Below the pieces are notes generated by a model. That model saw only the letters and a program-made list of their open reading frames with translations. It ran no database searches and was not told where the DNA came from. Positions 1,127-19,912 of a stretch of 40,754 nucleotides of DNA are shown here, piece by piece. Origin of the DNA: Oscillospiraceae bacterium (GTDB lineage Bacteria > Bacillota > Clostridia > Oscillospirales > Ruminococcaceae); contig JAAVIE010000007.1 of assembly GCA_014799325.1 (NCBI GenBank), positions 1-40,754 on the forward strand, given 5' to 3'. Every line of letters begins with the position of its first letter. Within the stretch, counting starts at the first letter, position 1. The translations under genes were made by a program, and so were the position numbers.

Positions 1127-2272
1127 ATGCAATACCGCAGACTTGGAAAAACAAACTTAATGGTAAGCGAGATCGGCTTCGGAGGAGAGTGGCTGGAGCG
1201 TCACAACTATGAGGAGTGCAAGGCGGTCATTGACCGCGCCGACGAGCTTGGAATAAATATCCTGGACGTCTGGATGCCCGAGCCCAACGTCCGCTCCAAT
1301 ATCGGAAAAGCCCTTGCGGGCAGGCGTGACCGCTGGTTCATTCAGGGTCACATAGGTTCCACCTGGCAGAATGAGCAATACACCCGCACCCGCGACGTTG
1401 ACAAATGCCGCGAGGCATTTGAAGATCTGCTTACACGTTTGCAGACCGACTATATAGACCTGGGAATGATCCATTTTATAGACAAGGAAAGCGACTGGGA
1501 AGCTGCCATAAACGGTCCTTTTATGGAATACGTGCAGGAATTGAAGAAAAAGGGCACTATCCGCCATATCGGCATGAGCACTCACAACCCCGTTATGGCA
1601 AAGCGCGCAGTGGAAGCAGGCTTTGTGGAAATGATGCTTTTCAGCATAAATCCTGCATACGATATGCTCCCTCCCACAGACGACCTTGACACATATTTCG
1701 CAGAGGAATTAGGGGAAGGCGTTGGCGGTATCGAACCTACAAGAGCCGAGCTGTACAAGCTCTGCGAGCAGAATGACGTAGGACTTACAGTCATGAAAGG
1801 CTTTGCAGGAGGCAGGCTCTTTGACGCCAAGCGTTCGCCTTTCGGCGTGGCTCTGACCCCTGTGCAGTGCATACACTACTGCCTGACACGCCCTGCTGTG
1901 GCTTCCATAATGGTGGGCTATGATACACCCGACCATGTGGAGCAGGCAGCAGCTTACGAAACCGCAACGGCGGAGGAAAAGGATTATGCCGCAGTCCTTG
2001 CAAAGGCGCCCCGCAACACCTTCGGACAGGGGGAATGCACCTATTGCGGTCACTGCAAGCCTTGTCCTGCTGAGATAGATATTGCCATGGTAAATAAATA
2101 TTACGACCTGGCGACTATGCAGGAGGAAGTTCCTGCTTCTATAAAGGAGCATTATCTGGGGCTGGAGCATAATGCCAAGGATTGTATCGGCTGTAAAAGC
2201 TGCGAGAGCAGGTGTCCTTTCGGGGTGAAGATCGCGGAGAGAATGGTCAGGACAGCGGAGTTGTTTAAGTGA
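1127..2272 (+). CDS. Aldo/keto reductase with C-terminal 4Fe-4S ferredoxin-like domain
   Basis: MQYRRLGKTNLMVSEIGFG AKR start; C-terminal CTYCGHCKPCP and CIGCKSCESRCPFG cysteine clusters. Confidence 0.95.
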   Translation: MQYRRLGKTNLMVSEIGFGGEWLERHNYEECKAVIDRADELGINILDVWMPEPNVRSNIGKALAGRRDRWFIQGHIGSTWQNEQYTRTRDVDKCREAFEDLLTRLQTDYIDLGMIHFIDKESDWEAAINGPFMEYVQELKKKGTIRHIGMSTHNPVMAKRAVEAGFVEMMLFSINPAYDMLPPTDDLDTYFAEELGEGVGGIEPTRAELYKLCEQNDVGLTVMKGFAGGRLFDAKRSPFGVALTPVQCIHYCLTRPAVASIMVGYDTPDHVEQAAAYETATAEEKDYAAVLAKAPRNTFGQGECTYCGHCKPCPAEIDIAMVNKYYDLATMQEEVPASIKEHYLGLEHNAKDCIGCKSCESRCPFGVKIAERMVRTAELFK

Positions 2273-12480: not shown

Positions 12481-12502
12481 TGTGGTTGGGGCGGAAGGAT
12501 TT
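12481..12502. repeat. attL-like core (duplicate of tRNA-Gln 3' end)
   Basis: Identical to 19835-19856. Confidence 0.9.
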
Positions 12503-13218: not shown

Positions 13219-13275
13219 TCATTTCATTCCTTTCATTCTGTTTTTTCCTGCTCTGGCTTTGCGTAATCCTTCCTC

Positions 13276-13467
13276 TTTCACTTATAGGGGAGGTGACAGG
13301 GTGGGTATAATGCTTTTATGTATGCGGTTTTGTGGTTTTCTCTATTTGCGGGTTGTCTGAATTTTTTACAAGTGAGTGTATTTTATATCTGTTGTTTTTC
13401 CTGCCTTTTCCTTTTGGTTATTTTGAAGCGGCAAGGGCGGTGGGATCGGTGAGAGCGTAGCCAAAAA
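13276..13467. repeat. 192-bp direct repeat, copy 1
   Basis: Identical by line-by-line comparison to 17035-17226. Confidence 0.97.
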
Positions 13468-13471
13468 GAAA

Positions 13472-13500
13472 AGAGAGCCGCTCTTTTGGCTCTCTCTTGG
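13472..13500 (-). terminator. Terminator after the serine recombinase
   Basis: AAGAGAGCCGCTCTTTTGGCTCTCTT hairpin. Confidence 0.7.
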
Positions 13501-15734: not shown

Positions 15735-16982
15735 TTACCTTACTTCGTTGATCCAATTTAGCAATAAATTTCTCATTCGTTCTGACGGTAGATACAACTC
15801 TATTGGCTCTCCGTTTCTGATCTGACTTCTCCATATCCATTGTAAAAGTGCAGAGAGTGCAAAAAGATCCTCATCAAATTCAATTTGGTAATGATTTACA
15901 AAGTGCTTTATATCGGGTGAAATAAATTCATTGATAAGATATGCTAAATACTTCTTTTGGCTATAGTTATTTGTAGCTTTTGCGTTACAAGCAACATGGC
16001 AATTTGAATATAGTCTGCCTTTTATATATTTTCGGAATGGTTTAAAAACAGTATACATATTATCTGCTGATCTTGATTTGGTAACTGTTCTGAAATAGTT
16101 TTCAGTATTCTTTTTTATTTGTTCCAATAGTGAAAAGTTTTTTGCTTTTATCTGTCTTTCATACCAACTTTTTGACAAAGGATTGGATTTACCAACTTTA
16201 TTACCAATATCATTGAATTTTCCCTCATAAATATGTAATAGCTTAACTCTGTCTTTCCTCTTTCTAAGCTCTAACTCCCTGCTATGCGGTATGATCTCTT
16301 TTCCGTCCTTGTCAAGCATATATTTCTCATATTGGATAGAATGAATATCAAAATATGATTTTTGAATACTGCCATTCCAAAGGTAAGTTAAAATATAGCT
16401 ATCTTTGAAGCATTTGAAGAAATCAACGGGGAAGTTCCACATTAAAATTTTTGCTATATTGTCATCTTCATTTTTAAAGCCCATAAGTGACTTAAAACTG
16501 CATAGTTCTTTTATTTCCTTGAATGCTCCCTTGTAGTTGTTTTTTTCTTCATTCCATATCAAAAAGCCGTCATTATCAAGTGATACTAAATGTTCTCTAA
16601 ATATGATCTTGCGGTCATCATTACTTATTTTGTAGGGTGCTAATACCTCTAAGCATTCATCAATAATAAGTGTGTAGTCTCTGCTCCTGAGAAGCTCCAA
16701 TATAGTTAAGTCCATTTTTTGAATAAGAGCGTGTGTTGTAACAATATTATCGTTTTTCTCAATCAGGTTTATAAAGCTCTTTTTCTTTGTTCCCCATAGC
16801 TTGGGATCGAACATCTCTATTATAGTTTCCTTTTTATACCGTTCGCATTCAGGCAAAAACGGCACAACACATAAAAATTTCTTTTCAGGGTGTGAGTTGA
16901 TGTAGTTGATCGCCCATCTGCTTTTACCGCTCCCCATAATGTCGTCTACGATCTTGATTTTGTTTTCTTGTGTTAAATTCAT
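15735..16982 (-). CDS. SF2 helicase-like P-loop NTPase
   Basis: Walker A DDIMGSGKSRWAINYI, Walker B YTLIIDECLEVL, C-terminal motif-VI-like QWIWRSQIRNGEPIELYLPSERMRNLLLNW. Confidence 0.72.
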   Translation of the reverse strand: MNLTQENKIKIVDDIMGSGKSRWAINYINSHPEKKFLCVVPFLPECERYKKETIIEMFDPKLWGTKKKSFINLIEKNDNIVTTHALIQKMDLTILELLRSRDYTLIIDECLEVLAPYKISNDDRKIIFREHLVSLDNDGFLIWNEEKNNYKGAFKEIKELCSFKSLMGFKNEDDNIAKILMWNFPVDFFKCFKDSYILTYLWNGSIQKSYFDIHSIQYEKYMLDKDGKEIIPHSRELELRKRKDRVKLLHIYEGKFNDIGNKVGKSNPLSKSWYERQIKAKNFSLLEQIKKNTENYFRTVTKSRSADNMYTVFKPFRKYIKGRLYSNCHVACNAKATNNYSQKKYLAYLINEFISPDIKHFVNHYQIEFDEDLFALSALLQWIWRSQIRNGEPIELYLPSERMRNLLLNWINEVR

Positions 16983-17034
16983 TTACTGTTACCTTCCTTA
17001 GTTAGATTAGAAAATAAAGCTGACTGACTTTATA

Positions 17035-17226
17035 TTTCACTTATAGGGGAGGTGACAGGGTGGGTATAATGCTTTTATGTATGCGGTTTTGTGGTTTTCT
17101 CTATTTGCGGGTTGTCTGAATTTTTTACAAGTGAGTGTATTTTATATCTGTTGTTTTTCCTGCCTTTTCCTTTTGGTTATTTTGAAGCGGCAAGGGCGGT
17201 GGGATCGGTGAGAGCGTAGCCAAAAA
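17035..17226. repeat. 192-bp direct repeat, copy 2
   Basis: Identical to 13276-13467. Confidence 0.97.
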
Positions 17227-17382
17227 AGATTGATCTTAAATCGACATTATGTCGGATTAAGAAAAGGGGACTTCATTTTAAAGATCCCTTTTTGGGTTGG
17301 ACATTTTGTCTAATCCAAACTAACATTGAGACAGTTTACAAGCTGTGGTTTAACTACAACCCGTAAATTGAAATAAATGAAA

Positions 17383-17413
17383 AAAAAGAGAGCCGCTCTA
17401 TTGGCTCTCTTGG
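17383..17413 (-). terminator. Terminator after the 17431-17847 gene
   Basis: AAAGAGAGCCGCTCTATTGGCTCTCTT, nearly identical to the hairpin at 13472. Confidence 0.7.
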
Positions 17414-17430
17414 TTATGTATTTACTACAT

Positions 17431-17847
17431 TTAAATTTTTACCTGCTTCAGCATATATATTGTATTTCCATCTCCTCTTACTCCAATAGGCTTATCAAGA
17501 TCATCTACATAACAATACCCCTTTTTGTAGGCGTGTTTTTCCAAAAACCTTTCAAATTCTTCAAGCTGTTCATCGGACAAACCATAGAACATATCAACTT
17601 CTTCCTTTTGGGGGAATTCTACGCCCTCTCTATCCATTCTCTTTTTGTATGCCCTAAACTCGTTATCCGTCAATTTCCGAGGGCGGGGAAGTGTGATTGC
17701 TTTGGCTATTACACTACACTGTTCAAAAGTCAATTCGGGGAGCCTTGAAACAATCTTGCCTATTACTTTGGGAAGTGTCATTCTGTCAAACTCGCAGTTA
17801 TCCAGATATGAATTGATCTTTAATGCTTCATCAATAAATTTGCTCAT
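17431..17847 (-). CDS. Uncharacterised element-encoded protein
   Basis: MSKFIDEALKINSYLDNCEFDRMTLPKVIGKIVSRLPELTFEQ...; start assigned to MSKF downstream of the track start. Confidence 0.7.
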   Translation of the reverse strand: MSKFIDEALKINSYLDNCEFDRMTLPKVIGKIVSRLPELTFEQCSVIAKAITLPRPRKLTDNEFRAYKKRMDREGVEFPQKEEVDMFYGLSDEQLEEFERFLEKHAYKKGYCYVDDLDKPIGVRGDGNTIYMLKQVKI

Positions 17848-17873
17848 TGTCTTTTCTTCTTTCTGTATAATGG

Positions 17874-17902
17874 TTGATTTTTTCATTCGCTTGTGTTATA
17901 AT
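17874..17902 (+). promoter_or_regulatory. Promoter opposing the 30-aa peptide gene (TTGATT-N17-TATAAT)
   Basis: -35 17874-17879, -10 17897-17902, 17-nt spacer. Confidence 0.65.
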
Positions 17903-17961
17903 GTGTATGTTGGAGTGACGGCGGCAACCGCCACCCCTCAACACATTGCAATCACAAGTTT

Positions 17962-18054
17962 TTACTTGCGCTTGCTGTTGTTTGCCGTTTTAAGGTTGTA
18001 AAGATTTGTGGCTATACAGAACCCAAAAACGACTATGACTATAACAACAGCCAT
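17962..18054 (-). CDS. 30-aa hydrophobic peptide, type I toxin-like candidate
   Basis: Manual translation MAVVIVIVVFGFCIATNLYNLKTANNSKRK*; AAGGAG SD 9 nt upstream; hydrophobic N-half and basic C-terminus. Confidence 0.6.
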   Translation of the reverse strand: MAVVIVIVVFGFCIATNLYNLKTANNSKRK

Positions 18055-18059
18055 TTTTT

Positions 18060-18091
18060 AAATCTCCTTTCCGTAAGGGGATTTATTTTTT
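18060..18091 (+). terminator. Intrinsic terminator of the putative antisense RNA; same palindrome masks the peptide SD on the other strand
   Basis: 10-bp stem (with one G-U) plus ATTTTTT. Confidence 0.6.
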
Positions 18092-18112
18092 GCGCTCCCT
18101 TACTGTGATCAT

Positions 18113-18141
18113 AGTATAACACTATTTACACAAATAGTAAA
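18113..18141 (-). promoter_or_regulatory. Promoter of the 30-aa peptide gene (TTTACT-N17-TATACT)
   Basis: Minus strand; overlaps the operator-like repeat 18122-18137. Confidence 0.6.
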
Positions 18142-18210
18142 TAGCTGAATACAAAAAATAAAACAATCTACTATTTACACAAATACATGTTTCTCTATTT
18201 GTGCAAATAG
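18122..18210. promoter_or_regulatory. Three operator-like repeats CTATTT-N4-AAATAG
   Basis: 18122-18137 and 18195-18210 perfect arms; 18171-18186 one mismatch. Confidence 0.65.
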
Positions 18211-18214
18211 CAAA

Positions 18215-18243
18215 TTGCTAAATATGCTTTGATAGTTTATAAT
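18215..18243 (+). promoter_or_regulatory. Promoter of the RHH gene (TTGCTA-N17-TATAAT)
   Basis: -35 18215-18220, -10 18238-18243. Confidence 0.65.
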
Positions 18244-18274: not shown

Positions 18275-18478
18275 ATGGCAGTATCAAAAAAGCAACAGGC
18301 TTGTGTTAATCGCTACATTGCGGGCAAATATGATAGGATCAATCTAACCGTTAAAAAAGGCACCAAACAAGCCCTACAAGAAGCGGCAAAGGACAAAGGG
18401 GAAAGTATCAATGGGTATATAAAAAACGCTGTACAGGCTCAATATAAAGCCGATACAGGCAAGGGAATAGACTTATAG
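18275..18478 (+). CDS. Arc/CopG-like ribbon-helix-helix protein
   Basis: DRINLTVKKGTKQALQEAAKDKGESINGYIKNAVQ pattern; 67 aa; RBS aaaggggggtg. Confidence 0.78.
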   Translation: MAVSKKQQACVNRYIAGKYDRINLTVKKGTKQALQEAAKDKGESINGYIKNAVQAQYKADTGKGIDL

Positions 18479-18594: not shown

Positions 18595-19761
18595 GTGCCG
18601 ATAAACAAAATGACAGACAGCAAAGGTAAAGCAGTAAAGAACAAAGAGGGGTTACAAGGTTATAGGGTTAGGATCAATTACACTGACAGCAACGGAAAAG
18701 CAAGACAGGTGGAGCGGACAGCATACGGACTGGGAGAAGCGCAAACCCTTGAACAAAAGCTGATACAAGAATACAAGGACAAAAAACTGGTTGCCGCTTC
18801 AAAAATGACTATCAATGAATTATATACAGAGTATATGAAGTACCACGCCACCGAGACAAGAAAAAGCTCCGATATAAGCACGGCATCTAAGCTACAGAAA
18901 AGGGTGTTGCCTTATTTTGGAGAGTGTAGGCTTGACAAGCTGACACAAAAGGATCTTGCAGATTGGAAAATTGAGATCAGCAAACAAGATTTAGCATTAA
19001 GGACAAAACAAAATGGGTATATGGCTTTCCGAGCCTTGCTCAATTATGCGGTTAAAATGGAATATATACCCAAAAATCCTTTGACTGTCTTGGGCGGCTT
19101 TAAAGATGTTACAGGACTGAGTGAAAATTCCACCCCTGAAAAATTTCAATACTACACCGCTGAGCAATTCTTGAAATACATAGCCGCCGCAAAAGAAAAC
19201 TGTATCACTGTTACCGATTGGGGATATTATGTCTTTTTCAATATCCTGTTTTATTGCGGACTGCGCAAAGGTGAAGCCAACGCCCTTAAATGGTCTGATA
19301 TTAGGGGGAATATGATGTATATTCGCCGCAGCATTTTCCAAAAGGCAAAAGGGGAAGATGTTGAAACTGCCCCTAAAACTGCCAGCAGTAGCCGTGATAT
19401 TCAAATTCCCTTACCGTTAATGAAAATACTTGAAGAACACAAAGAACGGCAAAAGCAAGCCGCCGGGGAGCTATTCAGTGAAAATTTGAGGGTTTGCGGC
19501 TGTGAACGTCCATTGCGTGATACAAGTATAGAGAATAAAAACAAGGCTTTTTCCTCTGCAGCTGATCTGCCACACATACGCATACACGACTTTAGGCACT
19601 CCCACGCCTCTTTACTTGCCAACGAAGGGATAAACATTCAAGAGGTTGCAAGGCGGCTGGGTCACTCCAACGTAAAAATGACATTGAGTACATACTCCCA
19701 TTTATACCCAAGAGAGGAAGAACGGGCAATATCTGTATTGAACAAAATAGCGGAAAAATAG
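18595..19761 (+). CDS. int: Site-specific tyrosine recombinase (integrase)
   Basis: GLRKGEANALKWSDI, HIRIHDFRHSHASLLANEGINIQEVARRLGHSNVKMTLSTYSHLY catalytic motifs; GTG start. Confidence 0.97.
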   Translation: MPINKMTDSKGKAVKNKEGLQGYRVRINYTDSNGKARQVERTAYGLGEAQTLEQKLIQEYKDKKLVAASKMTINELYTEYMKYHATETRKSSDISTASKLQKRVLPYFGECRLDKLTQKDLADWKIEISKQDLALRTKQNGYMAFRALLNYAVKMEYIPKNPLTVLGGFKDVTGLSENSTPEKFQYYTAEQFLKYIAAAKENCITVTDWGYYVFFNILFYCGLRKGEANALKWSDIRGNMMYIRRSIFQKAKGEDVETAPKTASSSRDIQIPLPLMKILEEHKERQKQAAGELFSENLRVCGCERPLRDTSIENKNKAFSSAADLPHIRIHDFRHSHASLLANEGINIQEVARRLGHSNVKMTLSTYSHLYPREEERAISVLNKIAEK

Positions 19762-19834: not shown

Positions 19835-19856
19835 TGTGGTTGGGGCGGAAGGATTT
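19835..19856. repeat. attR-like core within the tRNA-Gln 3' end
   Basis: Identical to 12481-12502. Confidence 0.9.
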
Positions 19857-19912
19857 GAACCCTCGAAATGGTGGAGTCAGAGTCCACTGCCTTACCACTT
19901 GGCGACGCCCCA
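19837..19912 (-). tRNA. tRNA-Gln (anticodon CTG)
   Basis: TGGGGCGTCGCCAAGTGGTAAGGCAGTGGACTCTGACTCCACCATTTCGAGGGTTCAAATCCTTCCGCCCCAACCA folds as a cloverleaf with encoded CCA and U1:A72. Confidence 0.97.

Follow-up and report, generated by a model that had tools for sequence, protein, structure and literature searches.

The window analysed here, a stretch of 40,754 nucleotides from a gut Clostridia genome, contains an integrative element of 7.4 kb, and within this element a locus that is likely to be a type I toxin-antitoxin (TA) module, in which a 30-residue membrane peptide would act as the toxin and an RNA transcribed from the opposite strand as the antitoxin. This reading, put forward in an initial annotation made from the letters of the DNA, is the best supported of those considered, because the layout of the locus matches that of the proven yonT/SR6 system and recurs in four other loci. 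All the parts that the annotation named lie at the positions given there, and their combination is beyond chance. The components of the locus are listed below; promoter scores are consensus matches only.

17962-18054, minus strand: ORF of the 30-aa membrane peptide, the putative toxin (MAVVIVIVVFGFCIATNLYNLKTANNSKRK), with an ATG start
18064-18070, minus strand: Shine-Dalgarno (SD) sequence of the peptide, AAAGGAG
18113-18141, minus strand: peptide (sense) promoter, TTTACT-N17-TATACT, extended -10 TG, 9/12
about 17900-17947, minus strand: strong hairpin of the peptide mRNA directly past the stop codon, with G-U pairs that favour this strand
17874-17902, plus strand: opposed (antisense) promoter, TTGATT-N17-TATAAT, extended -10 TG, 10/12, 59 nt past the stop codon
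17909-18091, plus strand: predicted antisense RNA of about 183 nt, deduced from promoter and terminator, spanning SD, ORF and stop codon
18059-18091, plus strand: intrinsic terminator of the antisense RNA (hairpin 18059-18085 plus ATTTTTT), overlapping the SD region

The peptide ORF is absent from the annotation of the genome. Its product has one membrane helix and a basic tail, with a maximum Kyte-Doolittle (KD) value of 3.18 over 15 residues and a net charge of +4; a length below 60 aa and a transmembrane helix with a charged end are the features expected of a type I toxin. The letters around the ribosome-binding site (RBS) and start codon recur, at 95-100% over 20-23 nt, at start codons in other Clostridia genomes, those of genes judged by their products to encode EF-Tu, ATP synthase c subunit (atpE), thioredoxin and ribosomal S18, so that the RBS region resembles that of highly expressed genes. 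These matches are independent of one another, and on such independent grounds the predicted translation start of the peptide is convincing. Both promoters and the plus-strand terminator were confirmed, and both promoters proved in addition to be of the extended -10 type. The plus-strand promoter and terminator bracket the peptide ORF, as would be expected of the antisense gene in a type I system, and the predicted antisense RNA folds with a z-score of -3.1.

Type I toxin mRNAs are expected to be structured, and in the minus-strand RNA across the region the degree of structure greatly exceeds expectation (z -6.7, or -5.1 for the predicted transcript); only 2% of 240 control windows reach z <= -5. 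The identical bases read as plus-strand RNA give a z-score of only -2.3, with a stability of -68.6 for the sense strand vs -53.2 for the antisense strand, because the G-U pairs of the mRNA turn into A-C mismatches on the other strand. This difference points to the peptide mRNA as the strand on which selection for structure has acted. The hairpin past the stop codon, which the initial annotation had not described, is complemented by the 5' end of the antisense RNA, and the start of the ORF pairs with its end in the mRNA (GCUGUUGUU/AACAACAGC). It had also been proposed that the terminator palindrome, read on the peptide mRNA, pairs with the SD. Masking of this kind is predicted, and the palindrome is perfect on the plus strand (11 pairs); on the mRNA itself the pairing is broken by one C-A mismatch. 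Two competing folds are predicted for the SD region: either the SD lies in the terminator palindrome, or the 5' GUAAGGG is paired with CCCUUAC and the SD is free. The predicted accessibility of the SD, calculated with an SD window that is off by one base, ranges from about 0.002 to 0.8 depending on the length of the transcript and switches back and forth as the transcript is extended, because the 5' end GUAAGGG competes for CCCUUAC; once the first ten nucleotides are removed, it falls below 0.001. The mRNA of another type I toxin has been described as forming metastable folds of such a kind (PMC6733600).

The region upstream of the peptide is shared with a divergent gene for an Arc-like ribbon-helix-helix (RHH) protein, whose relatives are numerous in the family (81 of 398 genomes gave matches at E <= 0.001). 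The stretch from the peptide promoter to the RHH promoter holds CTATTT-N4-AAATAG in three operator-like copies, one of them exactly within the spacer of the peptide promoter.

18121-18138: palindrome ACTATTTACACAAATAGT, the probable operator, inside the spacer of the peptide promoter
18170-18185: second operator-like copy, ACTATTTACACAAATA
18195-18210: third operator-like copy, CTATTTGTGCAAATAG, adjoining the RHH promoter
18215-18243: promoter of the RHH gene
18275-18478, plus strand: RHH protein, 67 aa, divergent to the peptide (phrog_13890, 4.9e-15; phrog_582, Arc-like repressor, 3e-5)

Judging from the placement of these palindromes, the RHH protein is probably a repressor both of its own gene and of the divergent toxin gene, where it would act through the operator in the promoter spacer. 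The peptide would be transcribed from a promoter region shared with its putative repressor gene, as a heavily folded mRNA, while the constitutive-looking promoter past the stop codon would supply an antisense RNA (about 183 nt) that is complementary to the SD and to the ORF over its full length. Once the two RNAs pair, translation would be blocked and the duplex would become a substrate for RNase III. Under such double control, the toxin would be set free both transcriptionally and translationally if the element were lost or inactivated, and the module may in this way stabilise the element. If the gating by the RHH protein is real, it would link a type I addiction module to the element's own repressor, a proposal that is directly testable.

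The mobile setting, which the initial annotation had also recognized, is borne out by att-like repeats at a tRNA-Gln gene and by an integrase.

12481-12502: att-like direct repeat of 22 bp, far end of the element
15735-16982, minus strand: homologue of SPbeta YonV, 415 aa, downstream of the peptide (38.5% identity over 98% of the length)
17431-17886, minus strand: ORF151, an orphan ORF of 151 aa downstream of the peptide (138 aa from a better start at 17847)
18595-19761, plus strand: tyrosine integrase of the element
19835-19856: second copy of the 22-bp att-like repeat, within the 3' end of tRNA-Gln
19837-19912, minus strand: tRNA-Gln

To judge from its genes (integrase, RHH protein, YonV homologue and resolvase), the integrative element may be of a satellite-like or plasmid-like kind. 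The element also contains a 199-bp direct repeat (13269-13467 and 17028-17226, 98% identical), which looks like a duplicated regulatory or origin segment, and each copy is followed by a similar hairpin, AAAGAGAGCCGCTCT..GGCTCTCT (13465-13495 and 17380-17410). ORF151 gave no matches among phage records. The genes downstream of the peptide raise the question of whether it is a leader and not a toxin at all, the plus-strand RNA then being an antisense regulator of ORF151 and the YonV homologue, as in plasmid replication leaders under antisense control. No clear terminator follows the peptide on the minus strand and the transcript runs towards ORF151, with the YonV homologue further along on the same strand; the two competing folds of the SD region would also suit a leader. 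We nevertheless hold this to be unlikely, since a membrane helix with a basic tail is needless in a leader, since some 115 nt between the stop codon of the peptide and the start of ORF151 at 17847 imply that the two are not coupled, and since in the proven SPbeta case it is a type I toxin that precedes yonV (PMC5848175).

Because no homologue of the peptide was found, the slot adjoining relatives of the RHH gene was examined instead, in about 100 loci. The same plan, with other peptides, was found divergent to relatives of the RHH gene in three of these, L068 (MTPKVKTETKIILLIAIIQLIGSLVDLIKKLIE), L144 (MGRNKKHRKEKASVESRINLIIAVLNLIAAILMFIKNNTG) and L147 (MAKHKRKPMRRPKKNRTDRSEVLQTLLIINAILVTVKTILEIIEKLS). 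A fourth locus, L188 (MNKKNKKGKDDTLEKIVLATAILNLLKEIVELIQKLIE), was found by a search with the L147 peptide, and its divergent neighbour is not a recognised RHH gene. The four loci belong to genomes of the same family as the window. Each has a hairpin directly 3' of the stop codon and then a promoter (10-12/12) firing back, an arrangement whose opposed promoter has a counterpart at 11 of 566 ordinary ORFs of those loci (1.9%); the z-scores of the mRNA folds are -8.5 for L068, -5.2 for L144, -5.5 for L147 and -5.3 for L188. The spacer of the toxin promoter holds a different palindrome in the same position in L144 and L147, and in L188 ACTGCTTTAAAGTAGT can be read there by eye. The presence of a palindrome within this spacer in the window and in three of the four loci suggests that the element's repressor probably gates the toxin. 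A related first peptide is present in L187, which was left out of the count because no strong opposed promoter lies near its stop codon.

All four loci also encode a second peptide, hydrophobic and basic-tailed, immediately past the antisense promoter; it resembles the window peptide in composition and not demonstrably in sequence.

L068, 1074-988, minus strand: second peptide
L144, 2104-2184, plus strand: second peptide
L147, 1265-1184, minus strand: second peptide (MMDWIIIILDSISLVLLVAAIITNRRK)
L188, 1423-1331, minus strand: second peptide

In L068, a short ORF in another frame (MSRKKAKK), which has a strong RBS and contains A AAA AAG, comes before the hydrophobic peptide (1156-1290, minus strand); the peptide may be frameshifted, or use slippage, or re-initiate. 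In the closest relatives of the RHH gene (L053, L054/L179, L056, L061, L180 and L181), other genes occupy the spot of the peptide. The plus-strand RNAs of L053, L054/L179 and L056 were rejected as instances of the same module, as they cover no short ORF. In these loci a small RNA gene stands alone, with a sigma-A promoter, a 5' hairpin and an intrinsic terminator; it faces minus-strand genes and lies between genes 1 and 2 of the RHH-divergent operons.

Small membrane proteins are common in mobile elements, and the peptide could be one of these with some other role, e.g. in immunity, conjugation or phage interference, the opposed promoter serving for transcriptional interference only. The exact bracketing of the ORF by opposed promoter and terminator, and the recurrence of the arrangement with unrelated peptides, make this quite improbable. 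Taken together with the type I reading of the window, the recurrence raises a broader and more tentative proposal, to which we would give slightly less than an even chance: that repressor-gated type I TA modules form a class, widespread and uncatalogued, in the mobile elements of gut Clostridia, a class in which the toxin is divergent to an Arc-like RHH repressor, the operator lies in the toxin-promoter spacer and the antisense promoter just past the stop codon, and peptides of unrelated families replace one another in the toxin slot, in some cases with a second, basic-tailed peptide downstream. If such a class exists, release of the toxin would be tied to the element's own control of lysogeny or excision.

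Searches by homology gave little for the peptide. The tblastn comparison that the initial annotation had suggested was run, and neither peptide homologues (tblastn/BLAST) nor DNA homologues were found in 391 genomes of the class, 199 of the family and 71 of the genus, or among phages and plasmids; DNA matches to the window were short and limited to promoter-like or RBS-like segments. No family in Pfam, NCBIfam, PHROG or PADLOC matched the peptide at cut-off or with a convincing E-value, and Rfam gave no antisense family and chance microRNA matches only. A profile search of viral contigs with the relatives' first peptide found no match, and when viral contigs were scanned for exact patterns of the antisense 5' region, nothing or a chance match within a gene came back; the idea that this 5' segment is a common Clostridia element found no support. 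Type I toxins are short, tend to be unannotated and evolve too fast for homology searches. The layout, i.e. post-stop hairpin, opposed promoter, divergent RHH gene and operator in the toxin promoter, revealed modules that sequence search had missed, and the same approach also recovered a proven system as a control. When the region was subjected to dinucleotide shuffling, a comparable SD-led hydrophobic small ORF arose in 4 of 3000 shuffles, and in none of the 3000 was it accompanied by both promoters; loose criteria were satisfied by two ORFs in 345 kb of comparison DNA, both less hydrophobic than the peptide. That the ORF arose by chance between two real promoters, as its shortness and want of detected homologues might suggest, is very improbable in view of these shuffles, the strong RBS, the structured mRNA and the recurrence of the layout.

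Among known type I systems, Fst/par and Ldr/Rdl resemble the window in combining a short hydrophobic toxin with a cis-encoded antisense RNA. The assignment of the peptide to an Fst/Ldr type, which had been suggested earlier, found no support: it gives no hit to Fst or Ldr models with E-values as high as 1 (Pfam) and 10 (NCBIfam) allowed, nor does it match Hol_Tox/TxpA (PF16935), and the Rfam search was likewise without a match. A weak Hol_Tox (PF16935) match (0.0077) was seen for MISYSELFLFANFVISVITLCFNIFYRKK, near another RHH gene (L153, 1116, minus strand). In the LexA-gated type I toxins (tisB/istR and symE/symR), the toxin mRNA is under the control of a promoter-binding repressor as well as of an antisense RNA. 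Such double control is also predicted for the window, whereas the repressor would there be the element's Arc-like protein, and the peptide and RNAs are unrelated. The type I toxins of C. difficile prophages (CD0977.1/RCd11, CD0956.2/RCd10 and others), as portrayed in the available parts of two reports, are comparable in size (34-59 aa) and share with the window a hydrophobic N-terminus, a Lys-rich C-terminus, a consensus RBS, a convergent antisense RNA, in the window a predicted one, and location on mobile elements (PMC7699646, PMC6563280). They differ in that family search reveals no sequence relation to the window peptide, and those same parts describe no RHH partner for them (PMC7699646, PMC6563280).

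The closest counterpart is yonT/SR6 of SPbeta, a prophage of B. subtilis; this is a type I system established by experiment, in which the long yonT mRNA extends through yoyJ, yonU and yonV (PMC5848175). The script applied to the window, run on this system as a positive control, found yonT together with an opposed promoter of the extended -10 type 46 nt beyond the stop codon (59 nt in the window) and the annotated post-stop stem-loop, with an mRNA fold z-score of -4.85; L198, a relative from B. pumilus, is arranged likewise. Common to both systems are thus a short hydrophobic and basic peptide (in the window a putative toxin), a post-stop hairpin, an opposed extended -10 promoter beyond the stop codon and a YonV homologue downstream on the same strand, and the two-peptide arrangement of the four other loci recalls the yonT/yoyJ pair. 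The link between yonT-like toxins and YonV is suggestive and not universal, since no recognisable toxin was seen upstream of the YonV homologues in two Clostridioides phages. YonT differs in having 58 aa and a long Arg/Lys tail, vs 30 aa in the window; SR6 overlaps only the 3' end of yonT, whereas the window antisense RNA is predicted to cover the whole ORF and the SD; and yoyJ and yonU are not recognisable in the window, of which the RHH-gated promoter would be a distinguishing feature. The two peptides share an NLK...SK.K end, a weak similarity (BLAST E 0.16) whose score is reached by 147 of 5000 segment shuffles. By analogy, the module of the window would work most like that system, and it is likely that its layout is the proven one of yonT/SR6, joined to a new peptide and to an RHH-repressor switch as an extra.
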